From a virus, in IMG/VR virus record IMGVR_UViG_3300020220_000058, positions 1 to 57,208 of that record: a stretch of DNA of 57,208 bases, one strand, 5' to 3'. A program made the position numbers and the translations under genes. Of this stretch, positions 1 to 32,514 are shown one piece after another. The notes beneath the pieces are model-generated. The model saw only the letters and a program-made list of their open reading frames with translations, did no database searches and was not told the DNA's origin. How positions within the stretch are numbered: the first letter of the stretch is position 1; every line of letters starts with the position of its first letter.

Positions 1-396
1 TGCGGCCGACGCCGCAGCACCAGCTATGGCAGTCATGCCAAATGCGTACGCTTTATGAAGATACTTTCCAGCAACAAATAGAGCGTGGATTCCGACTAGC
101 GCAGCAGATAGTAGCGCCATCTGAATCAGGGTTCCCTTAATTGCCAGACCGAGAACCTTAGACAGGCCCATGCCCATCATCTTGATTCCTTTGTCCATTG
201 AGTCGAAGACTTTTCTTGTCCTCGTAGCAGCAATCAGGAAGGTTGACATCTGCGTGCCAGCCACCTGAGCGCCAGAGGAAAGGCGCGACATCCTCCGCTC
301 TAGGCCGGTTATGGCTTTATCGAGGGCTTTTACTTCGGCAGCGCCCTGTAACGCTCCCTTTACCTCGATATTAATTGTCGCTTCGGCCCTAGCCAT
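1..396 (-). CDS. Tail tape measure protein, N-terminal part (cut by window edge)
   Basis: Partial gene that runs off the left edge; 132 residues are visible from ATG at 396. Residues 1-50 are charged and helical; the rest is rich in Ala, Leu, Met and Gly with long hydrophobic helices, as in phage tape measures. It lies directly downstream of the frameshifted tail-assembly chaperone, which is where a tape measure gene sits in most tailed phages. Tape measures fill the tail tube and set its length. Residues 38-42 read Arg-Leu-Ser-Ser-Gly (LSSG at 271-282), the same motif that joins segments of the giant polyprotein. The identity rests on position and composition, since most of the gene is outside the window. 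Confidence 0.7.
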   Translation of the reverse strand, partial: MARAEATINIEVKGALQGAAEVKALDKAITGLERRMSRLSSGAQVAGTQMSTFLIAATRTRKVFDSMDKGIKMMGMGLSKVLGLAIKGTLIQMALLSAALVGIHALFVAGKYLHKAYAFGMTAIAGAAASAA

Positions 397-16622: not shown

Positions 16623-17159
16623 ATGTCAAAATCCTTCGTGAATCCTGAAATTCAGTACAAAGCTGCCACTCAGGGTGCAATAAACCTAGACGAAGCCAGG
16701 GGCATAGTCGAGTGTTTCGTGGCAGGAATTGGCAACAAGGACTCCGTTGGCGATGTTTGCGCCCCTGGGGCATTCGCCAAAAGCCTATTGCGCCGGAAAC
16801 CAAGAGTTGTGTGGGGCCATAACTGGAACGACCCAATCGGCAAGGTTCTAGAAATTTACGAAGTTCCAGCAAACGACCCAAGACTTCCGAGCAAGATGAG
16901 AGCAGCGGGTATTGGTGGGCTCTACGCAAAAGTTCAATTCAACCTAATGTCAGAAAAAGGCAAGGAAGCATTTGCGAGTGTTGCATTCTTTGGCGAAGAG
17001 CAGGAATGGTCAATTGGGTATAAGACAATCAACGCAAAATTTGACCAGCAGATGCAGGCGAATGTTCTATTTGAGGTAGAGCTTTACGAGGTGAGCCCTG
17101 TTCTTCACGGTGCAAATCAATTGACTGGAACAATATCTGTTAAGTCGGATGAAAATAAT
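16623..17159 (+). other. Polyprotein segment 1: HK97/S78 prohead protease domain
   Basis: Residues 1-179. 'VVWGHNWNDPIGKV' places the family His at residue 66, and 'EWSIGYK' places the nucleophile Ser at residue 130; 'LYEVSPVLHGAN' (about residues 155-164) is the closing strand-helix with a second His at 162. This is the family that trims scaffold and capsid during head maturation. In related phages it is a stand-alone protein of about 200 residues; here the frame continues for 4500 more residues without a stop. Confidence 0.9.
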
Positions 17160-20100
17160 GCCACCGCAGTGATGGAAAGGGCTGTTAGTTCCATCGCGAA
17201 TGCCGATAGTGAAAATTCTCCGGAACTAAAAGAGGTTCTATACGCACTCAGAAATATTGCTTCCATGATTTCCGATAACGAGAAGCATGAGTATGGAATG
17301 CCCTCAGTAATGCCTTCAGCAAATAGACAACCTATTCCATCAATGCCAAGCCCTGCTCCGTCCACGGCGCCGAGGTCAGTAGTCAAGCCAACAAGACCAT
17401 CTATCCCTGAAAACCCCATGGTAGTTGCTCTTCGCCGTGAGCTGGTCGCAAGAACTGGGTCGAACATAATTGTTCGCTCTGCTGGAGACAATGTTGTTGT
17501 ATTTGACCGAATTATGAGCGACGGTTCGTCTTGCACGTACAGACTTGCGTATCACTATGCAGATGGTGAATTCATGTTTGGTAAGCCAGAGAAGGTCAAC
17601 GCGCAGACCGTTTACACTCCCGAGACTCCTGGGGCACCAGGAGATGCATACTGGGGAGACGATTACTCAGAAACACCAAAGTCATTGCAATCTGGTGATT
17701 TTTGGAGTGCCGGTTTTTATAGCGAGCTGACCTCGCAGCCAGACACAAGCAATGCCCTCATGGAGGTGATAGAGAGTCTTCAACATCTAATCAATGAAAA
17801 ATCGGAATACGTAATACCAGTAGAGCCGGCAGAGGCTTTTGAGTTAAGGCAAATGATTGACCCAGTTCTCGAGTATTACAACGCTGACGCCAGAGTAACC
17901 GAGGAGGGGATTGTAGTTAAGTCAGCACACAATCCAGAGCTAATTGAAGCTCTTGATGTCGCGACTAAGTCCGTGCTGGGAAAAATCCGAAGGGGCATTG
18001 GCGCTGGAAGGCGTCTTGATGCTCCAAACATTGGTGGCGGTAAAGGTCGTAGCAGAGCAGCGCGAGCAATTGGCGCAGCAACTGGCGGTGTAGCTGGAAA
18101 TCTAGACCCTTCAAAAATATCTCTCAACGACCCGGACGGAGACGGGTGGGCCAGAGAGGGTTCAAGAAATCCTGTTTGGGTTGGGTTTAAAAAAGCAGTA
18201 GAAAAAATTGCGGGCAGCGTTGGCCGGAAGAAGAAGCCATCAAAAGACAAGCAAAGGGCCCGCTCTGCTGTTAATGCAGATAAACCCGGTCCGCCGAGAG
18301 TAAGGTCCGGAGCGCCGTGGGATGCTCCATTAACTCCTGCTCCGCCTCGTCCTAGCAGAGTGACGCTTACAGATGATGCTGGAGCAAGACTAAGAGAACT
18401 CGGCAAAGAAAGAGCCAGAGAGCTTGGCTTTGACAGAAACATTGACCCCGTCCTTCCAAGACCGCGCAAGAAACTTACAAACCAAGTATCCGCTGCCCCA
18501 CGCCCTGGAGAGGGCAGAAGTAGGGCATCGGGCGAATCAATTGCGAATGCAATACGTCGCTCAAAGAGCGCACCAAACCCTGTCCTTGGCCAGGAAATGG
18601 CAAATGATGTAGCTAAGTTCGGCTACCCGGAAGAGATGTCAACGGATGACCTAGTGAGAACGGTCGGCAAATTTAGAGGAGAAATAGCCAAGGCTAGAGA
18701 GAATCTAGAAAAGATTCAGGCAGATAGAGACTCTGGCAAAAAAGTATCTTCTTCAGAAATCGGAAAAGCTAGACAAAGTGTCGACTCCCTCCGTCAGAGA
18801 GCGTCTGTTTACTCATCCGAAATATCAAAGCGCGACAAAATAAAAGGTTCCGACAGATTCTCTTCAGGAAAAGCCATTACCCCAGAAGACAGACGCAAAA
18901 GAAGACATGCTCCGCTGGGTACAACTGGAGAATTTGACCTTCCAGACGAAGTTGCCACAAGAAATAAGCACGAAGAGTTTGTAGCAGAATTTAGAAAAAA
19001 CAACGGATTTTGGCTGGATATCCCAAGAGAGGGAACCGTCGCTTCAATGAATACGTCGGAGGAGTGGCAGAGGGCTAGAGAAATAGCAACAAACGTCGGG
19101 ATTCTTGAGTGGCAGGAAAATGAAAGAAATAGAAGGCCGAAGGGTTTTAGCGAAAAAGCGCGTTCGTCCATGGACTACCTAACATGGTTCGGTGGATATA
19201 CAAAGCGCCTTGGTGACTATCTCGATAGGGAAGAGTCCAGTGAAAATGTAACCGATGACGAACTTGCTGGTGCAAGGGCGGCAGTACTAGATGCATTGGC
19301 ATTCAGAATGGCAACGCCAACTGGTCCAGAAAGCCAAAATACGCTTGCGGCAATGCTCGCAGACGCCGGATTCGGTCCAAATGGAAAACACGAAAAAGCA
19401 TTCGGTGGGCGCAAGAAATCCAGCGTTGTTGGATTCTCTTCTGGTCGCGGAAACAGAGTAGACACTCGAGTGCTAGACCAACTTATGAACGATGGTAAAG
19501 AGGTCAGCGACGATGACGTGAAGGCAATACTTATGCCTAACGCCGGCATATTGATGCATCCAGAATATAACGACAGAACCGGCGAGGTATCTCTTGGCTG
19601 GAAGAACGTCCTAGAATCCTCATTAGAGGACAGGAGTTTCAATAGGGGTTCCCAGAGGGCGATGATTCGCCTTGACGATGAGGGTTATCAAAAATTTACA
19701 GAGGCACTAGAAGCAGCAAATGGAGAGCTGACCCCATCGGACGGCCTGCCATCTAGCTCAAGAAGCGTAAGGGACAGGGAATACCCATATTCATGGGGCA
19801 AGTCTCGAATGGGGGCTTTTTCATCTGGGCGCAAGTATCCACCAGAAATAGAAGACGAGCTTGTATTCGATTCCGAACTGGGCGGCAATAGAGCAGCAGA
19901 CAGAATCAATACCGAAAATGTCGACATGGAGATAGTTCCATCTTCCGATATTGGCCTTGATGGTCCAGATGATGGAGCATGGACTGTTGTCGGCATGTAC
20001 AGGGGAGAAGACTATGGCTCCGTCGACTACATCTATGAACTAGATACTTTTGATTCGGTAGAAGAAGCAAGACGCTTCATAGAGACATTTGACAGATTGA

Positions 20101-23100
20101 TAGATGAGGAAATTAGACCTGGCGACCCAGATTTCTTCCTCGATATAGATAACTACAACAAAGACAACAAAATATCCCTGGATGATGACCTTGACTCCGC
20201 TATATCTAAGGCTGTTCAGTCAAGAAAAGATAGAGAGAACGACCCATACGACTATGGCAGTCTCCTGTCATCAGTTCTTTCCGACAGGTCATTAAACCTT
20301 TTTGGTGATGGAGAATCAAGATTCTCTTCCGGAAGAAACAAAGCAGAAAGACGCCAATCTGTCAAGAGAGTCATGGCAGAAGATATGGCCGATAGAGAGG
20401 TCAATCTAGGAATACTTTCTCGCCGCATGAAGGGTGAAACCCTGGACGAAGTAGGTAGAGCATACGGAATAGACAGGGGAACAGTCCGCCAAATGGAGAT
20501 GCGCGAGATGAAGCGTCTCAGGGATGGAGCAACACCAAGCGAAATACTTGCCTACAGAATGACAGGCCTCACACTCGACGATATGGGCAGAATGCTCGGC
20601 ATGTCCCGTGAAGAGGTTAGAAGAATCGAGTCTAGAGAAATAGCACGGATGAGACTCGGCGGTCGCGACGGAAGCGACGCGATATTCGAGGGTCGTAAAG
20701 CTGGTCTAAGCCGCAATTCAATCAAAAAGCTAACTGGCATGTCTATGGATGACATAGCGACTAAGGAAAGAAAAGGATTTGAGAGGGCCGTAACACGAGA
20801 AGATGTCTCTCATCAGATATTTGACAAATACGTAACTAGATTCGGCGAAGACGAACTAACTGATGCGGAACTTGCGGAGGAGCTAGGGGTTAGCGAAAGA
20901 ATTGTTTCCGAAGTTCGCGCGGGGGCAAAGAAAGACATACTCGATGCCCGTCGTGGCATGGACGAACACTACAGCAGCCTTCCGGAGCCAACCGACGAAG
21001 AGCTTCAGGAGATGGCAGACTACTATGCAAATGATTTTGCTAGAGAGCAGGGTTTTGGCTCCTATGCGGAGTATAAGGATTATGTTTCCAGTGTCGGCAG
21101 GGAAGACGATGGAGAGAGGCTGTCTTCTGGAGCAGGTAAGCGCGACCTTACATTTAGTCAAAAAGTTGGTCAAAGAGTATTTGAGGAAGCAGAAAAGATA
21201 GCCAAAGAAGACAATAGGGACATTTTCGACACCCTGGATTCGCTCGTCTTTGATGAGCGCATGGATTCAACGAATCGTAGAAAAGATTTCGATGTAGCAG
21301 AGATGTATTCTCACATTAATTCCCTTCTTTTCCCAGAGGGTGCTAGAGAAAGCAGGAAGCGCAGACTCTGGAGAAGAGAAAGACTCTCCTCTGGCAGAAC
21401 CGGTAGAGGTCGGAAGAATCGGCGACAGGGCAAATCAAATCAGGGAGCATGGTCAGAAGAGGACCTTCAGAGATTCCGCGATAGAAATGTTCTACGCGCC
21501 AAAACTCGTCCCGGAAAGCGCAAGGATGGCCCATCAGCGGAAGAATTCTCTTCTGGACGCAAGAGAATAGATACGGCCGGTAGTTCAGCGCTGACTGGAG
21601 CATTCTACGATGCCGACAACAAAAGGCTTGTTGTCGGATTCAACAAGGGTGGGGTATATGCCTATGACGGCGTAACCCCAGAAGACATAGAAGAGATGCA
21701 CAATGCCGAAAGCAAAGGTGCAGCTATGGCTTCTATCAAGAAGAAGTACAAAGGCGTAAGACTTTCAGAAGCGGACGACAGCTTTAAGGCCACCAAACAG
21801 GGTGACGAATGGGTTGTAAATCCAGATAACGAAACGACTTACTCAATATCCGAAGACGGTGGAGAGTTCTTTGTTCTGAGAACTTCTGGAAGCTACGCAC
21901 GCGATGGCGGCCAGTCTGGAGATGAGTACTACCATCCAGAGTCGTTTAAGAATATGGACTCCGCGATGAAGTGGGTCGAGCAGGACTTCCTGCCATCAAT
22001 AACTCCAGAACCGTGGGACGAAGATGACTACGATGTAGACAGGCTTTCATCTGGTGGGCCAGCTCGCGCCGCAGCCCAGATGCAATTTGATACTCGTAGA
22101 AGTAGAAAAGCGACAGAAATGACATACGACCCGCAAGACGGTCGTGTTGGAATAACTTATAACGATGGAAAGCAGAGATTCTTCTCCGAGGTGCCTTACG
22201 AGGTTGCTAGGGCGGCAGGCAATCCATCAAAAGATATAGACAACTTCATTGATGACCTAGAGCGCGGGAAAGTGGGCAAGGAGGGCGGAAGATTTAGTTC
22301 CGGTGCAAGCTCGGTGCCTCGCACTGACTTTGATTACTCCTATCAGAAGTTCCCACCGACAGAAGAGCAGGCAGTCATTGCGGATGCGGTGGCGACTGGC
22401 GAGAACGTAATTGTAAGAGCATTCGCCGGCACTGGCAAAACTTCTACTCTTGTAATGATTGCTGAGAGACTGAAGCGTCAGGACCCAAAGAAGAAAATCG
22501 TCTACATGGCGTTCAACAAGGACATCCAGCTTGAGGCTGAGGGAAAGTTCCCTGGCAATACAGAGTCACGAACAGGCGACTCCATATCGTGGAACTGGGT
22601 CAAGCAGACAATGGGCGAAGCCTTCACGGACAGAATGAAGGGCAACCCACCAGAAAGAGTGAAGTCAAAGGGAACAAGAAACAAGGATATATCTATTCAT
22701 TTCAAGATTAAACAAATGGAGCATCCGGACGGGCTAAAAGATGAGAAAACCGGAAACCCCATAGTCCTTGATGCTGTTGATGTTACAAAGCTTGTAAGAG
22801 AAGCGGTTAAAGAATTCCTTATTTCGGAAGACGATGAGATAGGCACACAGCACTTTAAGAAAATACAGAATGTTCCACCAGCTCTTTTGGGACATGCCAA
22901 AGCTATATGGGATGACATGAACGACCCTGATGGCGTGATGAAATTGGATAACTCCGTATTCACCAAGATGTGGGCACTATCTAGGCCTCAGCTCAGTGAC
23001 GGTGTCGGTCTATTCAAAGGAAAGCCATCAGTAATATTCTTTGACGAAGCTCAGGACATAAACCCAGTAATGGCAAAAGTCATGCGGGAACAGAACATCC

Positions 23101-26100
23101 AAGTTATATTTGTTGGAGATAGTTACCAGGCTATTTACGGATTCCGTGGAGCATCGGACAGTCTCGAGAAAGCGGAAGCCACATATGACTTGCCTCTCAC
23201 TGGGTCATGGAGATTCGACAGCAAGATAGCTGGATACGCAAACAGATTCCTAGCGTACATGGGTTCAAAAGATAGAATTCGTGGCGTAGGAAAGCCGGGT
23301 GATGGTGTTGTTGAACCAGAGTCGATGGTTGACCCAGATGCAATTCTGACAAGAAGTAACGGTGGGGCGCTACGTGCAGTTGTTGAGCAAATAAAAAACG
23401 GAAGAATCGTAGGGACTTCGGAAAACTTCAAGAAAGACCTAACGAAATTCGCATGGCACGCAATAAGTCTCAAGGCCGATAAGCCAGTAAAAAATCCACA
23501 TCCAGAACTAGAGGAATTCTCTTCATGGCAGGAGGTTACAGATGCAGCCAACGCCGAGGATGCAAGCCCTCGACTAAGAATGCTTGTACAGCTATTCAAT
23601 GACACACCAAACATTATCGAGATACTGGACCAAGTCGTTGTCGGTGGCAAGCTCAGGGGGGAATCTGGTGGAGGCTCCGGCAAGAGGATTCTTCCTAGCG
23701 AAGTAACAGATGGCTTTGAGATGTCCATAGACCCAAGCAGTCTGGGTAAATGGGCAGGAGACAAAAAGACATCCGTTTTGTACAAAAATGGAAAACTGTT
23801 CTTTCAGTTGCCATACACAGCAAAAGGCTCATCTGGTGATGACAGCAAAAAGAGCTGGATTAAAGAAAACTTAGGAAAAATCAATCGCTTTGAGTATGGC
23901 AAGCCAGAAGAGACTGGCGGCAAGTTTGCAGTATTCGTAGACGCAACACCAGAACAGGCTGCAAAACTTCTCTCCGGAATAACATCGGGTGATGCTCAGG
24001 AAGTAGACGTCATGGTAATGACGGCACACAGGTCAAAGGGTCTTGAGTTCGGAAAAGTTCAGCTTTACGGAGACTTCCCAAGACCAAGAAAGAACAAGAA
24101 TACCGGTGAGATGGAGTACCCAGCTCCGGAAGAGCAAAGACTTCAGTACGTTGCATCAACTAGGGCCATACGCGAACTAGACCCAGGCCCAACTTCATGG
24201 ATATATAACGAAACATCTGAAGATGACGAAAGCCCAGGCGTACCTAGTGGTTTCTCGTCTGGCGCAAAAGGTAACCCAATGCCGAGCGCCATTGGTAAGG
24301 ACATGGTTCTAGAAGACGGCGGCACATACGAAGACAACATGTTTAGGGGCACGTACGTTGCCGACTTTAATGGCGGGAAGATGGTAATCCAGCCGGCAGG
24401 CAGGGATTCGTGGGCTGTTTACAGGGCAGACTTTATGGGCGGCGAAGATGGGCCTTCTTACAACTTCAGCTATGGTCCACCAACGGACGAGTCTGAGTTC
24501 AGTTCACTCGCAGACGCATACGAGCATGTTCTCAATTATGTAAAAGACAACGACATAACGCTTGACCAGATGGATGGAAGTCGCCGCTCAAAGGGGAGTG
24601 AGTCCTTCTCGGTGGCAAAAATCGGAAACTCCGGTTCTGGAATATCTGAAAGATTTAGCTCAGGTCGCAAGAATGCCGATAAAAGATTAAAGGCAGCTAG
24701 AAAATTTTCAAGGGGGGGAGATGCCGATGATGATGGTCGTCTGTCTTCTGGAAAGAGAGATTCTGACGAAGGGTTCGCATCGGGCCGAATACTGTCTCGA
24801 CTTCGCGGCCGAGAAGAAACCACTCAGAAAGAAGCAGATGAACTCTATAAATGGGCGGCGGAAGCAAGCAAGAAGCGTCCCGACGACGAATACTTGAGTC
24901 GCGTTGTTGGTAAGGGCTCAGAATACGGAGAAGGTCTAGACGAAAAAGACTTCGAATACATACGCCAACAACAGCTCATTGATTTTATAGTCGATAACGA
25001 CCTGCACCTACGCGACCCGGAAGGAGCTGGTCGAATATTAGATATATGGACCGGTGAAAGCCGGGGAAGAATTAAAGATAAAGACTGGGAGGCCCTGTCG
25101 GAACTCCGATACCGGCGCCAACAGAGAGAGGACGACGCATTTAATCGTGAAGCATTAAAGGACGTTGCCGAATCGCAAGGCATGCCACGTGACGACCAGC
25201 AAAAACTTGCCATTTTTGCGTGGGCGGCTTCTCGATTTGGGAAATATCCACTGGTAGAAGACGTCGTGAGAGGTGGGAGAACAAACATCCCAAACAGCCT
25301 CGACGACAGAGAATGGAAATTTCTTAAAACCGAATGGCTCAACAGCGACGCTCCAGACCCACAACCACTCAACACTAGAATGACCAATGGTGACATGGGC
25401 CCAGATAGGTATCTAGAACAAGACTATCTAGCGTACATGCGCGAGAGCGGTATGACCGGCTTGCTGGAAAAGTACCAGACGCGAGGTGGACTGACCGGCA
25501 AAGATTGGGCTTATGTAAAGAAGTTACACGACGACCTTGGCCCAAGGGGATGGCGAAATCCAAAGAGTGCCTCATACAGGGGAATAACTAGAAAAGAAAG
25601 AAGGGAAATTGACAAAAAAACTGGACGCCTGAGTGATTGGGATGTTCTGACCGAGGCACAAAGAGCTTCACTAGAGAAGCGCAAGGAAAAATTCAACCTT
25701 ACAGAATCAATGGCCAACGCGCTTTCTTCAGGCCGTACCACCCCGAATAAGCCCAAACAGGATGATGGTCGTTTGTCTTCTGGCGGTGACCCTACTCCTG
25801 AACAGATTGAAGCGGAAGACAGAGAAAATAGGGCTGACTTCTACAAGAACAGCTCTGGTCTTTATGAAAATGAACTTGCCGAATGGCTGGATGCAAATCC
25901 AAGCAAGACAGAAAAAGACTATGAGTCAAGCCCTGAATTTGCAGAGAGACTTGACGATATGGACAGCATCATGGGCGATTTCGCCGATGCTGAGGCAGAA
26001 CGTCGTCTAGATGATTATGCAAATCGCATGTCGTCCGGGGGAAAGCCACCCCGTTATCCACGACCCCCCACGCTCGGAGCGTTTCTCGGTTCTACGGATG

Positions 26101-29100
26101 ACTTATTCAAAAATGTAGATTCATGGGAAGATTTCAGGAATATATACAACGACCAAGAAATCATATTTTTTGATTACGAAACTACCGGTTTAGTATTTGA
26201 TGAATTCGGCAGAGCGACTAGCAACGGAGCACCAGTTCAGTTTGGTGCAGTAAAAATTAAAAACGGCAAAGAAATAGGCCGAATAAACCTATTCATGAAC
26301 CCCGGCGAGTCGCTCGGAGAATGGTCGCGAAACAATCTCAAAGACATAGACGGAAATCCACTAACAGATGACTGGCTTGGTGGACAGATTTCCGTTGAAG
26401 ATGCTCACAAACAGCTAATCGAGTTCGCTGGGGCTGATGCAATATTCGGAGTTCAAAATGCAACGTTTGATAAAGCTGTTTTGGACGATGTGTTATCAAA
26501 AATGAAATCGGACTGGAGGCCGTCAGGCTACATAGATACACGAGAGCTCGCAAGCCTTGTGCTCCCCAGATGGACACCAGAAACAGAAGATGGGCCATTT
26601 CAGACAAACAAAGATGGTGAAAAGGTCCCTTCCTCAAGTCTTGCCGCAATTACTGAATATCTTGACGTTGAGCTTGGAGATGGCCACCACAACGCAGATG
26701 TTGATGCTTTCGCAGCAAGCGAAGTAATGAGAAAAATGATTGATGGGGCAATCGAAAATGATTGGTCGCGAGATGCCCTATCAAAAGAAAAACGTGATTC
26801 TCGTCATGCGGAAACGATTGCAAAATTTGAAGAGAGCGTTCGGCAATTTGAGTCAGAATTAAGCCAGTATGGTCTATCTTCTGGGCGCCGCCAGCGGCCA
26901 TCTGATGAGGAGATTTATAACCTCAGAATGTCTGGCCCAACCCTAGAGGAAGTCGGGGAGAAGTATGGAATGACGCGCCAAGAAGTGCGCGCTGCAGAAA
27001 TGCGCCATATCAGGAAAATGCGTGATGCCGACTTTGAGGCAACTGGGGCACAGACATCTAGAAGAGAGCGTCGTCTATCTTCTGGAGGGAGACCCACACG
27101 CGCCGGTTCAGCAAAACAAAGAGGGAAAGTAGTCCTCACAAGCCAAGAACCAGGCGGTAAGTGGACTGACGTACCAGAAAACCAACTAAGTCGAAAAGAC
27201 GATTTCTTTGACAATGAAACAGCTTCAAGAATATTGGATAACCCACTAGAGAATTACAACGACCAAACCGGCTGGCCAGTAGCTGCTAGGGATTTCTTCC
27301 AAAGCCTAGTTTTGCAGCAAGAAGGAAGAGACATTCCTGTAATGGATGAAGATGGAAGGTTCACGCCTGAAGGACGCAACCAAGTCAAGAAGATGCTTTT
27401 CGGCTCTAATGAAGCAAGGGAAAAATTCCTAGACCAAATAGAGTCAGGCGATGTATCTCATATGCAGGCCGTTGCGGCTATCACAATTCTCGAAAAGCTT
27501 GGCGACGATAATACAAAACTGGGCCCAAGGGGTGCTTCAGACCACATGTTGGAAACATTTGGGTTTAAGTCTGCACCAGTCTGGGTTTCTGGCCTGGATT
27601 CAAGAGACCCCGACTACGACCTTATAAGAGGAGAGGTCAACTGGACTCCGTTGTCCGAAGAGCAGTGGCTTGATGAGGTCAAGCAGGCGTATGTTGATAA
27701 CAAAAACATAACCAACTATGTTGGAAATAGAAGAGATTGGGTTACAAAGAATAAGGGCAAGTCTGAAAAAGACTACGAATCAAGTCCTGAATTCATCGCA
27801 GACGCTAAGCGCGCATACTTGGAGAACAAGAACACCATTGGTCCTGCAGAAGTCTACTCTCACCCATTCACACATTTCTATGGGATGCGTGAAGAGCAAA
27901 AAGATACAGTCAAGAAGAATTGGCTTTCCCAGAACCCTGGCAAAACAGACGCTGATTACGACAAAGCAATGTCGTGGGACGGAGAGGGTGACCCTGACAA
28001 GTCAACGGAAGCTGGAAGTTGGGGATTTGGAGACCCACGCAGTCTTGGTGGGAAACCATCTACACAGGCAGATGGTGCTTCTAGTAAGAGGCCGACTTCA
28101 GCACGGGGTACGACTAAGAGGCCGACTTCAGCACGGGGTACGACTACTTCTTCATTGCCGCCGGAAACGACACAGAAGCTATTCCAAGCCATAAAGCTCG
28201 ATACGATTCTGTCGGCGCTTGGTATAAAAGACGATGTTACCAGAGAAGAACAAAGAAAGAAGCTTTCTGAACTTATTGGATTTACGATAACGGAGGACTC
28301 ATTCAAGGGCTACAAGCGCACGGGTCCGAGGCCAAGAATTATTCTGGAACTTCTACGCAGGGGTCACATTAAGGACCTAGATTCGCTACGCGAAGCCGAC
28401 AGGACAGATGCAAACCTGGGGAACCTTGTCAATCAAGCAAGAGACTCAGTTTTCATTGCTACCGCATACGGAAGACTGCGTGAAGCAGCAAGAGGTGCTG
28501 GTTTGTCTGAGGATTCATTTGGAGCAAGGCTTTGGGGGAGACTCGGGAAAGAATACGAAGACCATGTTATTAATGGTAAGGGGCAGCCAAGAAGCAGGAT
28601 GGCTGACGGTGCAATTCCAAAAACGTTTAACCTAAGCAAACTAGACCTTATTGGGGAAACGGAACTGTCAGAACTTGTTGACGGCCTAAATGCAATGGCT
28701 GAATCAGAGGGCTCTTCTGCTCGGTTTACGATTGACGATATATTCCCCAAGAACGATAGAGGTTACATCGATGCATTCGGTGAATCAAAGATAAGAATGA
28801 GCAGCGGAAAACCATCTACGCAAAAGGGACAGAGATTCGTTGCCAAGCCTAAGGGGAATAGGCTAACCAGTGCTGCAAATGACACTGCTGAAATGAGATT
28901 CTCCTCGGCGGCTAGACCAACGTACAGAACACCTGGCGGAGGAATCGACAAAGATGCAATGTCTGCAGATATTGAAGATGCGATTCGCGGTCCTCGACTT
29001 GGCGCTGTTGCAATAACTTCTGCAAATGCAGAAACGGTCGGCAGAGAGCAAGTAGATAATCTCACTAGAGCCATAACTCTTCGTCAGCACATAGCAGACA

Positions 29101-30833
29101 TGTTCCCAAGCGTTGTTAACGATAGAACACAGGTCTCCTACGATATAGAGCCTCTCCTGACGGAGCAAGGCATAAGTCCAAAAGATGCAGAAAAACTGAC
29201 AGACCTAGTTAACGACCTAGATGAATACATCGACGGGATAGTTAAGCAGTTCGAGGACGAGGGTGACAAGCTAGAAAGCGGTCTGCGCGAAATGACAGAC
29301 ATGCTCGACGAGGTATCTGAGCTACGTAAGTATCGCAAAGAGACAATCGACAAGTATGGCGAAGATGACGCAAGAAACTTGATAGACAGACTTGACGAAA
29401 AGATAAATAAACTTACGACATCAATTGATGACAAGTATCAGGCTACCATAGGTAGCAACAGAACAAACATGGCAAAACTTCGCGATGAAGCGCTTGCCTT
29501 GGTTGACGAAAATCCAGGGTTTGACAGGCCAAAGAAGGGCGGCGACAAGCCGCGCCTATCAAGCGGCGCCAACTCCCTGTCGTCGAAGCTGATAGGCATT
29601 GAAATGGCCATGGGCCGAGCCGAAGAAGGCGGTCTACCTAAATACAAGCCGGTCAGCAAGATGGACATGAACCTTCCAAACGGAACGCGCCTGTCTTCTG
29701 GCAAGGCTGACGAATGGTACGAGAACCTGACAGCGAAGCTTGTAGAGCAGATTGAAAAGATTCAGGCATCGGGCGGGGACAAGTGGGAATTCCCATGGCA
29801 TCGAACTGGGGCCATGCCGAAGAACGCAATCAGCGGCCACGTTTTCTCTGGTATGAACCCATTTGTCCTGTTGCTTGCTGCTGATGAAAAGGGTTACTCA
29901 ACACACCGCTGGGCTACATACAAGCAGTGGCAGAGCGTGGGTGGAAATGTAATGAAGAACGAAAAGGGCCAGACACTCCTGAAGCCAGTTTTCAAGAAGG
30001 TTAAGGACCCAGACACAGGTAAAGAAGAGACAAAGCTTGTCAACTGGAGCGCATATACCGTGTTCAACGTTGCCCAGGTGGAGGGAATAAATCCAGAAGA
30101 TTACGACGACAAGCCCAAAGACCTTCTTGATGAGGCAGCCAGAGTGGAGAGGGCCGAAAAAGCATTCGCCATAGTCGGTGCAGACATAGAAACCGGAGAT
30201 GGCTCACGTGCTTACTACAGCCCGTCAAACGATAAGATAGTTATGCCGCCGTTTGCTTACTTCAAGACCCCAGAGGGCTACTACGCGACCCTTGGCCATG
30301 AGCTTGTTCACTGGACTGGACACTCCTCCAGACTTGATAGGCCAAACATGAACCGCTTCGGCACCCCTGCATACGCTCGGGAGGAATTGGTTGCAGAGCT
30401 TGGCTCGGCTTTCTTGATGGCCAATTTCGGCATGGCTGCAGAGCCACGAGAAGACCACGCTCACTACCTGGCCAACTGGCTAAAGGTTTTGCGCGAGGAG
30501 CCAAAGGCCCTACAAGAAGCAGCAAGAGAGGCCCAAAAGGCGTCGAAGCTTCTCATCGAAAAGATGAGGGAAGTGCTTGAGGGTGCCGAAGTAGCCGAAG
30601 AAACGCTTGATGATGTTGACGGGACGAAGAGCGCATGGGTCGGAATGTCTGACGACATTGGGAGAGAATCACTGCTCCAGGTTGCAGGCATTCTTCCCGC
30701 ATACCTACGCATGGAGGTGGAAGCGGCCATTAAAAGCACCGCCCCAGGGGGACCCCTATCAACTAAGGTTATTAACAGAATTTCAAAAACAATTGAACTT
30801 CTAGAGACATTCTCAAAGCAAAAAGGTATTTGA
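16623..30833 (+). CDS. Giant self-processing head polyprotein (prohead protease plus cargo proteins joined by SSG motifs)
   Basis: One unbroken 4736-codon frame. Residues 1-170 are an S78 prohead protease. Residues 180-745 are a low-complexity, basic then coiled-coil region. From residue 746 on, segments of 11-653 residues are separated by a motif of mostly Arg, then Phe/Leu/Met, Ser, Ser, Gly. Recognised segments are a sigma-region-4-like HTH array (1238-1503), KTSC-type domains (1646-1894), UvrD-like helicase (1895-2547), DEDDh exonuclease (3140-3421), a single HTH (3422-3488) and an ArdC-like protein (4361-4736). The protease sits between portal and capsid genes as in other HK97-type phages. 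I infer that it cuts the motifs in the prohead so that cargo is packaged and injected. This extends the known idea of 'polyvalent' injected phage proteins. Individual families are well supported; processing is a hypothesis. Confidence 0.88.
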   Translation: MSKSFVNPEIQYKAATQGAINLDEARGIVECFVAGIGNKDSVGDVCAPGAFAKSLLRRKPRVVWGHNWNDPIGKVLEIYEVPANDPRLPSKMRAAGIGGLYAKVQFNLMSEKGKEAFASVAFFGEEQEWSIGYKTINAKFDQQMQANVLFEVELYEVSPVLHGANQLTGTISVKSDENNATAVMERAVSSIANADSENSPELKEVLYALRNIASMISDNEKHEYGMPSVMPSANRQPIPSMPSPAPSTAPRSVVKPTRPSIPENPMVVALRRELVARTGSNIIVRSAGDNVVVFDRIMSDGSSCTYRLAYHYADGEFMFGKPEKVNAQTVYTPETPGAPGDAYWGDDYSETPKSLQSGDFWSAGFYSELTSQPDTSNALMEVIESLQHLINEKSEYVIPVEPAEAFELRQMIDPVLEYYNADARVTEEGIVVKSAHNPELIEALDVATKSVLGKIRRGIGAGRRLDAPNIGGGKGRSRAARAIGAATGGVAGNLDPSKISLNDPDGDGWAREGSRNPVWVGFKKAVEKIAGSVGRKKKPSKDKQRARSAVNADKPGPPRVRSGAPWDAPLTPAPPRPSRVTLTDDAGARLRELGKERARELGFDRNIDPVLPRPRKKLTNQVSAAPRPGEGRSRASGESIANAIRRSKSAPNPVLGQEMANDVAKFGYPEEMSTDDLVRTVGKFRGEIAKARENLEKIQADRDSGKKVSSSEIGKARQSVDSLRQRASVYSSEISKRDKIKGSDRFSSGKAITPEDRRKRRHAPLGTTGEFDLPDEVATRNKHEEFVAEFRKNNGFWLDIPREGTVASMNTSEEWQRAREIATNVGILEWQENERNRRPKGFSEKARSSMDYLTWFGGYTKRLGDYLDREESSENVTDDELAGARAAVLDALAFRMATPTGPESQNTLAAMLADAGFGPNGKHEKAFGGRKKSSVVGFSSGRGNRVDTRVLDQLMNDGKEVSDDDVKAILMPNAGILMHPEYNDRTGEVSLGWKNVLESSLEDRSFNRGSQRAMIRLDDEGYQKFTEALEAANGELTPSDGLPSSSRSVRDREYPYSWGKSRMGAFSSGRKYPPEIEDELVFDSELGGNRAADRINTENVDMEIVPSSDIGLDGPDDGAWTVVGMYRGEDYGSVDYIYELDTFDSVEEARRFIETFDRLIDEEIRPGDPDFFLDIDNYNKDNKISLDDDLDSAISKAVQSRKDRENDPYDYGSLLSSVLSDRSLNLFGDGESRFSSGRNKAERRQSVKRVMAEDMADREVNLGILSRRMKGETLDEVGRAYGIDRGTVRQMEMREMKRLRDGATPSEILAYRMTGLTLDDMGRMLGMSREEVRRIESREIARMRLGGRDGSDAIFEGRKAGLSRNSIKKLTGMSMDDIATKERKGFERAVTREDVSHQIFDKYVTRFGEDELTDAELAEELGVSERIVSEVRAGAKKDILDARRGMDEHYSSLPEPTDEELQEMADYYANDFAREQGFGSYAEYKDYVSSVGREDDGERLSSGAGKRDLTFSQKVGQRVFEEAEKIAKEDNRDIFDTLDSLVFDERMDSTNRRKDFDVAEMYSHINSLLFPEGARESRKRRLWRRERLSSGRTGRGRKNRRQGKSNQGAWSEEDLQRFRDRNVLRAKTRPGKRKDGPSAEEFSSGRKRIDTAGSSALTGAFYDADNKRLVVGFNKGGVYAYDGVTPEDIEEMHNAESKGAAMASIKKKYKGVRLSEADDSFKATKQGDEWVVNPDNETTYSISEDGGEFFVLRTSGSYARDGGQSGDEYYHPESFKNMDSAMKWVEQDFLPSITPEPWDEDDYDVDRLSSGGPARAAAQMQFDTRRSRKATEMTYDPQDGRVGITYNDGKQRFFSEVPYEVARAAGNPSKDIDNFIDDLERGKVGKEGGRFSSGASSVPRTDFDYSYQKFPPTEEQAVIADAVATGENVIVRAFAGTGKTSTLVMIAERLKRQDPKKKIVYMAFNKDIQLEAEGKFPGNTESRTGDSISWNWVKQTMGEAFTDRMKGNPPERVKSKGTRNKDISIHFKIKQMEHPDGLKDEKTGNPIVLDAVDVTKLVREAVKEFLISEDDEIGTQHFKKIQNVPPALLGHAKAIWDDMNDPDGVMKLDNSVFTKMWALSRPQLSDGVGLFKGKPSVIFFDEAQDINPVMAKVMREQNIQVIFVGDSYQAIYGFRGASDSLEKAEATYDLPLTGSWRFDSKIAGYANRFLAYMGSKDRIRGVGKPGDGVVEPESMVDPDAILTRSNGGALRAVVEQIKNGRIVGTSENFKKDLTKFAWHAISLKADKPVKNPHPELEEFSSWQEVTDAANAEDASPRLRMLVQLFNDTPNIIEILDQVVVGGKLRGESGGGSGKRILPSEVTDGFEMSIDPSSLGKWAGDKKTSVLYKNGKLFFQLPYTAKGSSGDDSKKSWIKENLGKINRFEYGKPEETGGKFAVFVDATPEQAAKLLSGITSGDAQEVDVMVMTAHRSKGLEFGKVQLYGDFPRPRKNKNTGEMEYPAPEEQRLQYVASTRAIRELDPGPTSWIYNETSEDDESPGVPSGFSSGAKGNPMPSAIGKDMVLEDGGTYEDNMFRGTYVADFNGGKMVIQPAGRDSWAVYRADFMGGEDGPSYNFSYGPPTDESEFSSLADAYEHVLNYVKDNDITLDQMDGSRRSKGSESFSVAKIGNSGSGISERFSSGRKNADKRLKAARKFSRGGDADDDGRLSSGKRDSDEGFASGRILSRLRGREETTQKEADELYKWAAEASKKRPDDEYLSRVVGKGSEYGEGLDEKDFEYIRQQQLIDFIVDNDLHLRDPEGAGRILDIWTGESRGRIKDKDWEALSELRYRRQQREDDAFNREALKDVAESQGMPRDDQQKLAIFAWAASRFGKYPLVEDVVRGGRTNIPNSLDDREWKFLKTEWLNSDAPDPQPLNTRMTNGDMGPDRYLEQDYLAYMRESGMTGLLEKYQTRGGLTGKDWAYVKKLHDDLGPRGWRNPKSASYRGITRKERREIDKKTGRLSDWDVLTEAQRASLEKRKEKFNLTESMANALSSGRTTPNKPKQDDGRLSSGGDPTPEQIEAEDRENRADFYKNSSGLYENELAEWLDANPSKTEKDYESSPEFAERLDDMDSIMGDFADAEAERRLDDYANRMSSGGKPPRYPRPPTLGAFLGSTDDLFKNVDSWEDFRNIYNDQEIIFFDYETTGLVFDEFGRATSNGAPVQFGAVKIKNGKEIGRINLFMNPGESLGEWSRNNLKDIDGNPLTDDWLGGQISVEDAHKQLIEFAGADAIFGVQNATFDKAVLDDVLSKMKSDWRPSGYIDTRELASLVLPRWTPETEDGPFQTNKDGEKVPSSSLAAITEYLDVELGDGHHNADVDAFAASEVMRKMIDGAIENDWSRDALSKEKRDSRHAETIAKFEESVRQFESELSQYGLSSGRRQRPSDEEIYNLRMSGPTLEEVGEKYGMTRQEVRAAEMRHIRKMRDADFEATGAQTSRRERRLSSGGRPTRAGSAKQRGKVVLTSQEPGGKWTDVPENQLSRKDDFFDNETASRILDNPLENYNDQTGWPVAARDFFQSLVLQQEGRDIPVMDEDGRFTPEGRNQVKKMLFGSNEAREKFLDQIESGDVSHMQAVAAITILEKLGDDNTKLGPRGASDHMLETFGFKSAPVWVSGLDSRDPDYDLIRGEVNWTPLSEEQWLDEVKQAYVDNKNITNYVGNRRDWVTKNKGKSEKDYESSPEFIADAKRAYLENKNTIGPAEVYSHPFTHFYGMREEQKDTVKKNWLSQNPGKTDADYDKAMSWDGEGDPDKSTEAGSWGFGDPRSLGGKPSTQADGASSKRPTSARGTTKRPTSARGTTTSSLPPETTQKLFQAIKLDTILSALGIKDDVTREEQRKKLSELIGFTITEDSFKGYKRTGPRPRIILELLRRGHIKDLDSLREADRTDANLGNLVNQARDSVFIATAYGRLREAARGAGLSEDSFGARLWGRLGKEYEDHVINGKGQPRSRMADGAIPKTFNLSKLDLIGETELSELVDGLNAMAESEGSSARFTIDDIFPKNDRGYIDAFGESKIRMSSGKPSTQKGQRFVAKPKGNRLTSAANDTAEMRFSSAARPTYRTPGGGIDKDAMSADIEDAIRGPRLGAVAITSANAETVGREQVDNLTRAITLRQHIADMFPSVVNDRTQVSYDIEPLLTEQGISPKDAEKLTDLVNDLDEYIDGIVKQFEDEGDKLESGLREMTDMLDEVSELRKYRKETIDKYGEDDARNLIDRLDEKINKLTTSIDDKYQATIGSNRTNMAKLRDEALALVDENPGFDRPKKGGDKPRLSSGANSLSSKLIGIEMAMGRAEEGGLPKYKPVSKMDMNLPNGTRLSSGKADEWYENLTAKLVEQIEKIQASGGDKWEFPWHRTGAMPKNAISGHVFSGMNPFVLLLAADEKGYSTHRWATYKQWQSVGGNVMKNEKGQTLLKPVFKKVKDPDTGKEETKLVNWSAYTVFNVAQVEGINPEDYDDKPKDLLDEAARVERAEKAFAIVGADIETGDGSRAYYSPSNDKIVMPPFAYFKTPEGYYATLGHELVHWTGHSSRLDRPNMNRFGTPAYAREELVAELGSAFLMANFGMAAEPREDHAHYLANWLKVLREEPKALQEAAREAQKASKLLIEKMREVLEGAEVAEETLDDVDGTKSAWVGMSDDIGRESLLQVAGILPAYLRMEVEAAIKSTAPGGPLSTKVINRISKTIELLETFSKQKGI
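17160..18869 (+). other. Polyprotein linker: low-complexity, basic and coiled-coil region
   Basis: Residues 180-749. It contains Pro/Ser/Met-rich linkers (about 220-260), a small alpha/beta segment (about 265-420), a Gly/Arg/Ala-rich stretch, a 'LNDPDGDGWAREGS' acidic loop near residue 508, a basic Pro-rich stretch (about 530-660) and a coiled coil (about 660-745). The first SSG motif (Phe at 18858) closes it. No motif is visible before residue 745, so protease and linker would leave as one piece unless cut elsewhere. Confidence 0.6.
20334..21131 (+). other. Polyprotein segment: tandem sigma-70-region-4-like HTH array
   Basis: Residues 1238-1503, between the motifs at 20322 and 21120. Three or four related units: 'TLDEVGRAYGIDRGTVRQME' (residues 1273-1292), 'TLDDMGRMLGMSREEVRRIE' (1317-1336), a more divergent one near 1363, and 'LTDAELAEELGVSERIVSEV' (about 1412-1431). 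The first two match the 'TL.EIG...G.(S/T)...(I/V)RQIE...L..LR' pattern of sigma-factor region 4. A freed 266-residue piece could touch promoter -35 DNA or the host RNA polymerase beta flap. Transcription factor activity is inferred. Confidence 0.75.
21558..22304 (+). other. Polyprotein segments: two KTSC-like domains
   Basis: Residues 1646-1811 and 1812-1894, split by the motif at 22044. The first has 'SSALTGAFYDADNKRLVVGF' followed by 'GGVYAYDGVTPEDIEEM', the KTSC pattern (short strands around 'Y.Y.gVp...w..l..A.S.G.f'). The second has 'SRKATEMTYDPQDGRVGITY' followed by 'FSEVPYEVARAAG', a degenerate version of the same fold. KTSC domains occur in phage and bacterial proteins tied to RNA or DNA metabolism, but their biochemistry is poorly known. 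Confidence 0.65.
22305..24263 (+). other. Polyprotein segment: complete UvrD/Rep-like SF1 helicase
   Basis: Residues 1895-2547, 653 residues between two SSG motifs, about the size of a free SF1A helicase. Motifs in order: Q-motif like 'PPTEEQAVIADAVATGEN', Walker A 'FAGTGKTST' (Lys at 1939), Walker B 'FFDEAQD' (Asp-Glu at 2141-2142), motif III 'VFVGDSYQAIYGFRGA', motif V 'VMTAHRSKGLEF', motif VI 'EEQRLQYVASTRA'. It looks intact and enzymatically competent. A 3'-5' translocase delivered with the genome could remove host proteins or start DNA processing at once. Confidence 0.88.
24786..25733 (+). other. Polyprotein segment: helical protein with short internal repeats
   Basis: Residues 2722-3037, between Phe-Ala-Ser-Gly at 24774 and the motif at 25722. 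All-helical, with a recurring 'L(T/D).(K/R)D(W/F)....(K/R)' element, for example near 'GLDEKDFEYIRQQ', 'RIKDKDWEALSEL', 'SLDDREWKFLKTE' and 'GLTGKDWAYVKKL'. The pattern suggests a repeat protein of four or more helical pairs. No enzyme motif. Function unknown. Confidence 0.55.
26040..26885 (+). other. Polyprotein segment: DnaQ-like DEDDh 3'-5' exonuclease
   Basis: Residues 3140-3421. Exo I is 'IFFDYETTG' (Asp 3184, Glu 3186), Exo II is 'GVQNATFDKAVLD' (Asp 3283), Exo III is 'HHNADVDAF' (His 3356, Asp 3361). All four acidic ligands and the DEDDh histidine are present, and the spacing is normal. It is flanked by SSG motifs at 26028 and 26874. As a free protein it would remove 3' ends of DNA or RNA. 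Confidence 0.88.
26886..27086 (+). other. Polyprotein segment: single sigma-4-like HTH, 67 residues
   Basis: Residues 3422-3488, motif to motif. 'TLEEVGEKYGMTRQEVRAAE' (from residue 3440) is closely similar to the units of the HTH array about 2200 residues upstream, including the Met-Arg ending. It looks like a duplicated unit moved into its own cleavage cassette. If released it would be a peptide of about 7-8 kDa with one DNA-binding HTH. Confidence 0.7.
27087..28808 (+). other. Polyprotein segment: unknown protein with DYESSPEF-type repeats
   Basis: Residues 3489-4062. It holds two copies of a 'NPGKTEKDYESSPEF'-like element ('NKGKSEKDYESSPEF' and 'NPGKTDADYDKAMSW'), plus a third in the preceding 85-residue segment ('NPSKTEKDYESSPEF', near 25910). 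A 30-base direct repeat (28084-28143) encodes Lys-Arg-Pro-Thr-Ser-Ala-Arg-Gly-Thr-Thr twice. The last 200 residues are helical. No family recognised. Confidence 0.5.
28084..28145 (+). repeat. 30-base direct tandem repeat in the polyprotein gene
   Basis: Two back-to-back copies starting AAGAGGCCGACTTCAGCACG are identical over 30 bases. Identity at nucleotide level points to recent duplication, unlike the SSG motifs, which are conserved only as protein. It encodes a basic, Ser/Thr-rich linker. Confidence 0.85.
29703..30833 (+). other. Polyprotein segment: C-terminal ArdC-like antirestriction protein
   Basis: Residues 4361-4736, released by the last motif at 29691. The first half, 'EWYENLTAKLVEQIEKI' through 'FPWHRTG', 'SGMNPFVLLLAADEKGYSTHRWATYKQW' and 'YTVFNVAQVEGI', matches the ArdC N-terminal single-strand-DNA-binding domain. 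The second half is a metallopeptidase-like domain with HELVH (His 4559, Glu 4560, His 4563) and 'AREELVAELGSAFLM' for the third ligand. ArdC proteins protect incoming DNA from restriction, which fits delivery with the genome. Confidence 0.85.
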
Positions 30834-30920: not shown

Positions 30921-32498
30921 ATGGACAAAGAAATGCAGAACACTCTCAGTGTTGACGTCGACGGGAATGTACTTAAGTGCGCGAAGGGTGCCGACGTCTC
31001 TGCCTGCGGCTTCGAGGCCGACTCGAAAATATGCGGTAAATGCGGCGCTATTCCTGTTCAGGCCAAAATTGTACCAGTAGATGAAGAGATGCCAGAGGAC
31101 GAGGAAGCACAAGACGAGAAAGCATCTGAAGAGGAGTTGCCCGAGAACGAGGAAGACGAAGAAATGGACTCCGAAGAGGAAAAAATGATGGGTTCGTATA
31201 ACCCTCCGTCCAAACTTCGTCGGAAACCCGCCAAGGGGATGCGTACCGACGGAGATATGTCGGAAGACGTAATGGAAGAGGAAGACGACTCTGAAGACGA
31301 GGAGTCGATGAACGAGGAAAAGTACTCCTACTACAAGAAGTACGGCTTTGATAGGTATGTAAAGAAATATGGCAAGAAGCCTTGGGCTCCCGACATGGAG
31401 GACGAGGAAGAGGACATGGAAGAGGAAATGTCCAAGAAAGAAATGAACGAAGAGGACATGTCGGAGGATGACATGGACGAAGATGCCATGGACGACGAAG
31501 AGGACATGCAGTACGACGAAGATGAAGAGGAAGACGAAGACGAAGACGAAGACGAAGAGGATATGAAAGGCGCTATGGACCGTGCGTATAAGCGCCGCCT
31601 ACAGACAATGGGCATCAAATCAGCCGATATTGGCTCCTCCGGATATCTTTGCGCTCTTGACAGAAAGGCATATGCGGGACATATTCCCGTGTGTGACAAC
31701 TGTGAGGGCGGTTGCGCTTCAGAAAAAGGTATGCCTGGTCTTATTCACGCCGAGGGAATGGCCGAAGAGATTATTGACGGCGTAACCGTGGCTTCTGGCT
31801 ATTCAGTTCTTAACGATTTATTTGTCGTTGATGTTCAAAAGAAGTCGGGCAAGACATACGAGGTTTTCTACGAGGCTTCGACCGGGGAGCTACTGGGCTT
31901 CCATAAACTTGAGGACACCCTTAGTATCAAGTCAGCACTTGATGACCTGAGAGTAATTACTATGTTTGAGGCTGCTGATATTGCCGTAAAGGCGATTGAC
32001 GGTCACGTAATTGCGGTTGAGGGAGATTCATTCGAGGGAATAGATGCGTTTGCAGTAGAGGTTGACGGCTTTGATGGCAAATCATATGACGTTTTCGTTT
32101 CACTGGACGGCGAATTGCTTGGATATGACAAGTACGAGATGGATGAGGCTGAGGAAATTGAAGCAGAGGCTGCCGAAATTGCTTTGAAGCGCGCATTTAG
32201 CGATGATAAGAGACAGGCGATGGCCAAAGAGGGCACGGCAATGCCGGATGGTTCCTACCCAATAGCGGGTGAGGAAGACCTCAAGAATGCAATCCAGGCG
32301 TTTGGTCGAGCCAAAGATAAAGAAGCAACCAAGCGCCACATCATGAAGAGAGCTAAGGAAATGGGCAAAGAAAGCCTGATTCCTACAAACTGGGTGATGG
32401 GCGGAGACTCTGAGAAGAAGTCCTCTGAAGTTGACGCAGAGCTAATGGCATCGCTAATTGAGTTCGAGCTTCTTCAGGCCGAAACAGAAATCAACTAA
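30921..32498 (+). CDS. Acidic scaffold-like head protein
   Basis: A 525-residue protein. Residues 20-45 have four Cys in two CxxC-like pairs. Residues 50-215 are strongly acidic, with long Asp/Glu runs. Residues 235-420 have a Cys-rich loop and two PepSY-like repeats ('GKTYEVFYEASTGELLGF' and 'GKSYDVFVSLDGELLGYD'). The C-terminus 'AMPDGSYPIAGEEDLKNAI' followed by 'KRHIMKRAKEMG' matches a small module often fused to phage head proteins. Its position between protease and capsid, and its charge, suggest a scaffold or head-internal protein. It could also be a decoration protein. Confidence 0.6.
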   Translation: MDKEMQNTLSVDVDGNVLKCAKGADVSACGFEADSKICGKCGAIPVQAKIVPVDEEMPEDEEAQDEKASEEELPENEEDEEMDSEEEKMMGSYNPPSKLRRKPAKGMRTDGDMSEDVMEEEDDSEDEESMNEEKYSYYKKYGFDRYVKKYGKKPWAPDMEDEEEDMEEEMSKKEMNEEDMSEDDMDEDAMDDEEDMQYDEDEEEDEDEDEDEEDMKGAMDRAYKRRLQTMGIKSADIGSSGYLCALDRKAYAGHIPVCDNCEGGCASEKGMPGLIHAEGMAEEIIDGVTVASGYSVLNDLFVVDVQKKSGKTYEVFYEASTGELLGFHKLEDTLSIKSALDDLRVITMFEAADIAVKAIDGHVIAVEGDSFEGIDAFAVEVDGFDGKSYDVFVSLDGELLGYDKYEMDEAEEIEAEAAEIALKRAFSDDKRQAMAKEGTAMPDGSYPIAGEEDLKNAIQAFGRAKDKEATKRHIMKRAKEMGKESLIPTNWVMGGDSEKKSSEVDAELMASLIEFELLQAETEIN

Positions 32499-32514
32499 AG
32501 AAAGCGGACCCCAA

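Follow-up and report, generated by a model that had tools for sequence, protein, structure and literature searches.

A giant reading frame of a tailed phage as a candidate self-processing polyprotein, headed by a prohead protease and punctuated by a short repeated motif

What does a tailed phage do with a single reading frame of 4736 codons? The window considered here, i.e. the whole stretch of 57,208 nucleotides that was analysed (positions 1 to 57,208 of the IMG/VR virus record IMGVR_UViG_3300020220_000058), contains such a frame next to its portal gene. An initial annotation of this DNA had seen there a single frame beginning with an S78 prohead protease and continuing with whole proteins, and the Pfam domains and the length of 4736 residues agree with this description. 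The landmarks of the frame, named here polyprotein 1 (pp1), are the following:

14420-16522, plus strand: portal protein, directly 5' of pp1 (Pfam, PHROG)
16623-30833, plus strand: pp1, 4736 residues, prohead protease then motif-separated cargo, one unbroken ATG frame
16704-17138, plus strand: Peptidase_S78 domain, residues 28-172 (Pfam)
20421-20522, plus strand: Sigma70_r4-like helix-turn-helix (HTH), residues 1267-1300, the better of two stretches, unit 5 (Pfam)
21582-21731, plus strand: KTSC domain, residues 1654-1703, unit 8 (Pfam)
22362-24179, plus strand: UvrD-like helicase cargo, unit 10, residues 1914-2519 (Pfam stretches, PHROG)
26163-26726, plus strand: DnaQ/RNase_T exonuclease cargo, residues 3181-3368, unit 17 (Pfam)
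29715-30527, plus strand: ArdC-N and MPTase-PolyVal cargo, last unit (Pfam)

The limits of the helicase were obtained by merging three Pfam stretches (AAA_19, residues 1921-2175; UvrD N, 2136-2178; UvrD C, 2461-2519), a choice made for counting motifs inside domains. In the final unit ArdcN occupies residues 4365-4481 and MPTase-PolyVal residues 4509-4635, the latter with a Pfam match of 2.4e-44. As viral polyproteins do, pp1 joins in a single ORF a protease and several protein-sized units; as polyvalent proteins do, it carries in a single chain several unrelated domains, ArdC-N and MPTase among them.

A short motif, [FLM]SSG, recurs along this chain. The motif scan places its strict copies as listed here, with the preceding residue written before the hyphen and the coordinates spanning the motif itself:

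18858-18869, plus strand: R-FSSG, first site, past the protease region
19434-19445, plus strand: G-FSSG
19818-19829, plus strand: A-FSSG
20322-20333, plus strand: R-FSSG
21120-21131, plus strand: R-LSSG
21384-21395, plus strand: R-LSSG
21546-21557, plus strand: E-FSSG, end of a 54-residue basic unit (also from homolog comparison)
22044-22055, plus strand: R-LSSG
22293-22304, plus strand: R-FSSG
24252-24263, plus strand: G-FSSG
24654-24665, plus strand: R-FSSG
24741-24752, plus strand: R-LSSG
25722-25733, plus strand: A-LSSG
25773-25784, plus strand: R-LSSG
26028-26039, plus strand: R-MSSG
26874-26885, plus strand: G-LSSG
27075-27086, plus strand: R-LSSG
28797-28808, plus strand: R-MSSG
29556-29567, plus strand: R-LSSG
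29691-29702, plus strand: R-LSSG, adjoining the ArdC unit on its 5' side

The array is real, and the 22 copies first reported come down to 20 strict ones, the higher figure being reached when FASG (F at residue 2718) and FSSA (F at 4093) are counted. It was rightly noticed from the outset that Arg usually comes just before the motif (14 of the 20 strict copies) and that the motif avoids recognised domains: none of the 20 lies within a Pfam domain, and the same is true of all 62 copies found over four polyproteins, where domains cover 22-29% of the chains. Shuffling the residues of pp1 2,000 times produced a mean of 0.33 copies of [FLM]SSG and a maximum of 3, to be compared with the 20 observed. 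These are written in 19 distinct 12-base codings, using both families of Ser codons, so that they are not recent duplications of DNA. The sites are located in hydrophilic flanks.

Is such an array restricted to one phage? Scanning viral contigs with the protease returned at least 599 relatives; the 80 best of these were retained, and two further scans brought the collection to at least 216 loci in all, some of them sharing contigs. Taken together with the window, the protease-bearing ORFs of these loci collapse to 80 distinct sequences. The count of arrays is based on the 46 for which 2,000 residues or more are available; it leaves out the 34 that are shorter, many ended by the edge of a contig (L256 is a five-residue remnant). 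Prohead protease domains followed by a repeated motif, a combination that the initial annotation had proposed to look for in phage proteins, are common in this set. An array, meaning at least four copies of one motif class, is present in 40 of the 46 long S78 ORFs, with spellings that vary, and the remaining six have two or three copies only. By class, 32 arrays are of the SSG type, seven of the GFAS type and one of the LGSR type. Among the SSG arrays the majority residue in front of the motif is Arg in 13, Lys in four, Ser in four and Gly in three, and eight are mixed; over all 40 arrays, eight are without a majority residue at this place. Counts of k-mers that presupposed no motif recovered RLSSG/RFSSG, KLSSG, GLSSG, SLSSG, GFASR and LGSR. 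One relative, G012, has its protease and its cargo in separate ORFs, and there GLxS.T (also given as GLxSST) occurs in the ORF of the protease as well as in four further large ones. Two relatives with a short protease ORF are less telling: G005 has a weak GFxSxR that does not make a clear code, and G022 has three loose matches for 0.29 expected. The [FLM]SSG of the initial annotation does occur, and the sequences at hand show that it belongs to a wider code, x-[F/L]-[S/A/G]-S-[G/R], of which x is the most variable position.

The search brought to light several variants of the S78 locus. A 2698-residue S78 ORF (L335), whose contig is catalogued under a Phycisphaerae metagenome-assembled genome (MAG), has four G[F/L][A/S]SR sites, a further spelling. 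Five S78 ORFs of 441-464 residues (L288, L290, L291, L336 and L337) have one motif-like site each (FLSSG, FLASG, AFASG), possibly a state that preceded the array. A scan of genomes gave eight loci, the three close ones on contigs attributed to MAGs from unrelated bacteria, and a collection of phages had S78 relatives in 248 records. The [FLM]SSG array is absent from the protease proteins of the four isolated phages that were examined, DalanDe, Cantare, GMA6 and Gilgamesh. In Gordonia phage DalanDe, gp27 (L001:8632-13533) has 1633 residues, about 1,120 of them N-terminal of the S78 match, which tells us that extensions of the protease exist at that end too. In Streptomyces phage Gilgamesh, a 13.9-kb gene, open over its last 10.6 kb (gp48, L004:1-10638), lies slightly upstream of the gene that contains S78.

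The borders of the units offer a way to follow the motif through evolution. Homologs of the 54-residue basic unit mostly end with GPSxxE[FY] followed by the local motif, giving endings such as FSSG, FRLSSG, FRGLSSG, FDDLALASG, YGFGSQG, YGALGSRS and FDVGGLGSG. At homologous junctions, spelling varies and shape stays constant. The large ORFs collected contain 44 ArdC units, and a motif starts within 40 residues upstream of every one of them, when 18% of random windows have one; these 44 are related and hence not independent observations. When position 4 is left free in these upstream windows, Ser is found there in 53 of 55 instances, and when position 3 is left free, S, A or G is found in 53 of 55 as well; over whole SSG-class polyproteins, Ser occupies position 4 in 378 of 723 cases, 7.3 times background. 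Eight units of the window, followed among 131 homologs, have a motif within 40 residues upstream in 103 and a motif within 40 residues downstream, or the end of the chain, in 78, for 12-20% in random windows. Units differ in this respect: ArdC (upstream 43/43, downstream 27/43) and DnaQ (6/7 and 7/7) are well bounded, unit 18 is less so (14/25 and 9/25), and the helicase has an upstream motif in 8 of 15 homologs and a downstream one in 4 of 15. Across relatives, the junction can on the whole be recognised where units meet, with exceptions at some borders. Conserved domains that lack the motif had been named at the start as what would speak against a code; the outcome is mixed, with ArdC always preceded by a motif and the helicase often not.

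Homology itself breaks at the motif. Among 1,951 alignment ends between 24 polyproteins, 21.3% have a motif no more than 15 residues away in each of the two proteins, when shifting the sites gives a mean of 1.3% and a maximum of 2.3% over 100 shifts; the other 79% or so lack such a motif in at least one of the two. The same cargo is met in different genes. The DnaQ unit belongs to pp1 here, to the second giant ORF (pp2, see below) in G002 and G003, and to a separate ORF of 1204 residues in G006, while in G012 it is inside a 3039-residue ORF with GLASST and GLASRT on either side. Caulobacter phages have the ArdC unit as a gene of its own, which in the two that were examined begins 18 and 29 residues ahead of the aligned region. 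Cargo moves between genes.

The motif extends beyond pp1. Four copies, overlooked in the initial annotation, are found elsewhere in the window, three in pp2 and one in the tape-measure ORF:

1-396, minus strand: start of the tape-measure ORF, cut by the left end of the window (PHROG match of the G001 protein, blastp)
271-282, minus strand: R-LSSG of the tape-measure protein, residue 39 (motif scan)
30921-32498, plus strand: acidic ORF, possible scaffold (comparison by eye)
32458-39099, plus strand: pp2, second giant ORF, 2213 residues, three R-[FM]SSG sites
34168-34182, plus strand: HEIAH zincin motif of pp2 (alignment)
36826-36837, plus strand: R-MSSG in pp2 (motif scan)
37231-37242, plus strand: R-FSSG in pp2 (motif scan)
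37888-37899, plus strand: R-FSSG in pp2 (motif scan)
44905-46236, plus strand: major capsid protein (genome annotation by profile searches)

The tape-measure protein was identified through the 119-kb contig G001, which carries the same polyprotein: its ORF is complete there (1655 residues) and matches PHROG tape-measure families, and blastp from that protein reached the others. Part of the ortholog of G003 has no tape-measure PHROG match. Spelling is common to the large proteins of a genome. Eleven genomes with an SSG spelling were compared, ten of which also have sites outside pp1, in ORFs that reach 1,000 residues; among the 61 sites of these ORFs, 45 have the preceding residue that is commonest in the pp1 of the same genome, an agreement equalled in none of 5,000 shuffles. 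Per 1,000 residues, pp1 has 3.8 motifs; the remaining ORFs have 1.4 when they reach 1,000 residues and 0.07 when they are shorter. G023 has a further ORF of 2706 residues with nine sites, seven of them after Ser, and G017 has one of 2693 residues with four LGSR. The tape-measure orthologs have the spelling of their own genome in eight of the nine tested, with 11 matches to their own spelling and two to a foreign one; those of G017 and of G009 (a truncated tenth) have no motif of their own spelling. In the capsid protein the local spelling is absent in ten genomes out of ten, one of which, G005, has a weak spelling to begin with.

Several neighbouring ORFs deserve a word for their own sake. By eye, the acidic ORF has a C-terminal segment (AMPDGSYPI...KRAKEMG) similar to the one that closes the protease proteins in Gordonia phages GMA6 and DalanDe, as though a scaffold part had here been separated from the protease. 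A cysteine-bearing pattern, CP-G-...-FTD-...-C, is common by eye to pp2 (about residues 243-261) and to a 682-residue ORF at 41344-43392. Further along, 47633-48043 encodes a 136-residue protein of the staphylococcal-nuclease type by eye, and 48804-50729, on the minus strand, a ribonucleotide reductase with an insertion domain of the B12-dependent type.

Which enzyme might act at these sites? The S78 domain scores 35.2 bits with PF04586 (cutoff 21) and matches PHROG 3244, head maturation protease, at 4.7e-14. Its gene comes after that of the portal and before that of the capsid, with several ORFs between. H66 and S130, which we take to be its catalytic residues (as the initial annotation did for Ser 130), do not vary in any of the 27 sequences aligned, those of the four isolated phages included. 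A structural model of the domain (weak, with a mean pLDDT of 64) has T4 gp21 as its best VIA match, with a Z of 8.1 over 122 residues, followed by herpesvirus proteases at Z 5.3 and below; the same model has no Foldseek match at E<=0.001. The family also informs us about the bond. In HK97 Ser comes right after the cut (K103/S104; PMC10275583), the mature capsid protein of P1 begins with Ser, its protease being named the likely enzyme (PMC9024508), and in SPN3US Ser after the cut is a preference (PMC10052503). The residue before the cut varies, Lys in HK97 and Glu in SPN3US (PMC10275583; PMC10052503), and Ser after the cut is all that the known cases have in common. By analogy, the sites of pp1 would be cut between positions 3 and 4 of the code, which makes [S/A/G]|S, before the second Ser, the more likely bond. 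The product sizes of the initial annotation imply instead a cut after F, L or M; their list is reproduced to within the residue chosen for the cut, provided that FASG and FSSA are counted as sites.

Put together, re-spelled homologous junctions, a spelling that runs through each genome and homology that breaks at the motif make it very probable that the motifs are processing sites. This much of the initial proposal of a processing code stands; its restriction to pp1 does not, as pp2 and the tape-measure protein are likely substrates too. That pp1 processes itself, its sites being cut by the fused S78 protease, we regard as probable from sequence comparison. As the prohead assembles, the protease would bring in the cargo fused in frame to its C-terminus and cut at x-[F/L]-[S/A/G]|S-[G/R], freeing itself and some 20 pieces: a helicase, a DnaQ exonuclease, sigma-like HTH proteins, ArdC/MPTase and several without assigned function. 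The freed cargo would then be packaged and ejected with the DNA, location in the prohead and injection being argued from what is known of the family and, for delivery into the host, from the domains and the place of the gene. Acting in trans, this enzyme would also cut pp2 and the tape-measure protein. Lineages would diverge in the residue that opens the code, and because one enzyme serves all the sites of a phage, these would drift together; phages would acquire and exchange cargo in cassettes with the code at either end. Two facts count against S78 as the enzyme. The capsid protein, the classic substrate of prohead proteases, has no local motif, and the sites of the tape measure imply activity outside the head, a tail substrate being a poor fit for a purely head-internal protease. 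To this it must be added that spelling follows the protease tree (11 changes, for 24 in shuffles), as would be expected for any gene of the genome, which brings no special support to S78.

For this very reason co-evolution cannot separate S78 from a second candidate enzyme, the zincin of pp2. Thermolysin-like enzymes prefer a hydrophobic residue at the cut. A cut of this kind before F/L, x|[F/L][S/A/G]S, would also fit the sites, leaving S78 with ordinary head maturation only. This rival is a real one, since the H, E and H of its HExxH motif and downstream acidic residues are invariant in 11 of 11 aligned relatives, HExxH being found also in large ORFs of G012 and G005. It would account for the sites in the tape measure, and the available text of Iyer et al. 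(PMC5512222) proposes zincins of the MPTase type, linked to ArdC, as processors of polyvalent proteins. We nevertheless consider it unlikely. The enzyme would be separate from most of its substrate, and the Ser at position 4 together with a small residue at position 3 suits [S/A/G]|S better than a cut governed by the hydrophobic residue. Moreover, neither a Pfam match nor a solved fold speaks for an active peptidase, the tests being admittedly weak: at E 0.001 pp2 is matched by neither Pfam nor PHROG, its zincin region has no match in the phage collection at E 0.01, and searches by fold and against PDB sequences returned nothing useful for that region, which may still have a known fold.

The motif might also not be cut at all. 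It would then be a mark in linkers (a modification site, or a tag for encapsidation or scaffold binding), and the giant would be one polyvalent protein. Large multidomain chains without a code do exist, as two Arthrobacter phages illustrate:

L332:35379-43508: giant of phage Racecar (gp78), 2709 residues, annotated DNA helicase, HExxH near its C-terminus
L334:12692-22033: giant of phage Atuin (gp71), 3113 residues, annotated DNA helicase

Like pp1, both come right after the portal and contain a homologous helicase, 33-37% identical to unit 10; unlike pp1, they have a separate protease gene and linkers rich in P and E, and a gapped k-mer search of both found no repeated cut-like motif. An uncut giant may be the case in these two phages, and the virion RNA polymerase of N4 is packaged unprocessed according to the available part of PMC5512222. 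For pp1 we find this improbable, more so than cutting by the zincin of pp2: a tag would not need to recur at most borders, nor to be spelled alike in unrelated proteins of one genome, and one would not expect homology to break at the motifs or a protease to be fused at the head of the chain.

Much farther down comes the MPTase-PolyVal domain of the last cargo unit, linked to ArdC. Its match to Pfam speaks for it and, in the available text of PMC5512222, it is precisely this type of domain that is proposed to process polyvalent proteins. We hold its candidacy for very slight: G004 and G015 (both fragments) have GLSSG arrays and no ArdC homolog among their ORFs, and their HExxH matches are located in pp2. 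Finally, chance or a repeat artefact, to which Ser/Gly-rich linkers in hydrophilic flanks might lend some colour, is refuted by the shuffling and by the 19 codings among 20 copies, which also dispose of a copied DNA repeat, as does the existence of several spellings, each common to the ORFs of one genome; we give it practically no weight.

Self-processing by the fused S78 protease has several partial parallels. The nearest published idea is that of polyvalent proteins (Iyer et al., 2017; PMC5512222), where, in the text available, an embedded peptidase is proposed to release domains and the authors themselves draw the likeness to the polyproteins of RNA viruses. These proteins resemble pp1 by their unrelated enzymatic and DNA-binding domains, ArdC-N and MPTase included, and by presumed delivery with the DNA. 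They differ in that a zincin is the proposed processor and, in the same text, no repeated code appears, whereas pp1 has S78 first and a spelled code, placed where units meet and present again in other proteins. With HK97 the likeness is in the protease family, and with the prohead proteases of HK97, P1 and SPN3US in the position next to the portal and in the Ser after the cut. The SPN3US enzyme cleaves internal head proteins, and, from the part of the paper available (PMC10052503), it is a separate gene product, 13 of its 14 sites serving to remove N-terminal propeptides of head proteins; by contrast, the protease of pp1 is fused to its string of cargo and a tail protein bears the code. Herpesvirus pUL26 (PMC4498786) has, as far as the available text tells, a protease fused in cis to a capsid companion, with a site for self-release after the protease domain, at least two sites and a scaffold, when pp1 has 20-odd sites and enzymatic cargo. 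The folds of the two proteases may be similar, to judge from our weak model. As in RNA viruses and in African swine fever virus (pp220/pp62; available part of PMC10308890), components of the virion would be cut from large chains; pp1 stands apart by a cargo of enzymatic and modular appearance and by a code that shifts from lineage to lineage. A helicase-polymerase fusion of Aquificae viruses has been termed a polyprotein and, in the text available, is without such a code (PMC7689252).

RNA viruses and African swine fever virus process their polyproteins with proteases of other families. The view that the motif had not been known as a processing code is borne out by a search of the full-text literature, which found no prior description of it and no tailed-phage polyprotein cut by a prohead protease (subscription journals and preprints being outside its scope).

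On the broadest scale we lean, if only slightly, toward seeing in these loci a plug-in cargo platform of a widespread group of tailed phages: a prohead protease fused to a string of cassettes, a five-residue code specific to each lineage, and exchange of cassettes at the code. The substrates would be at least two giant polyproteins and the tape measure of the tail, and a few chains would suffice to make, encapsidate and release dozens of early-acting proteins. Were self-processing of pp1 true, tailed phages would use genuine polyproteins with a readable cleavage code, and thousands of unannotated residues per phage would become discrete, predictable virion proteins. The borders of the cargo could be called from sequence, yielding a direct list of what such phages may inject, and the lineages would form a natural series of variants in protease specificity, changed along with their substrates. 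There is a puzzle in this, namely why the tape measure of the tail should have the same code as a protease of the head. The arrangement suggests, besides, a route to load chosen proteins into a capsid.
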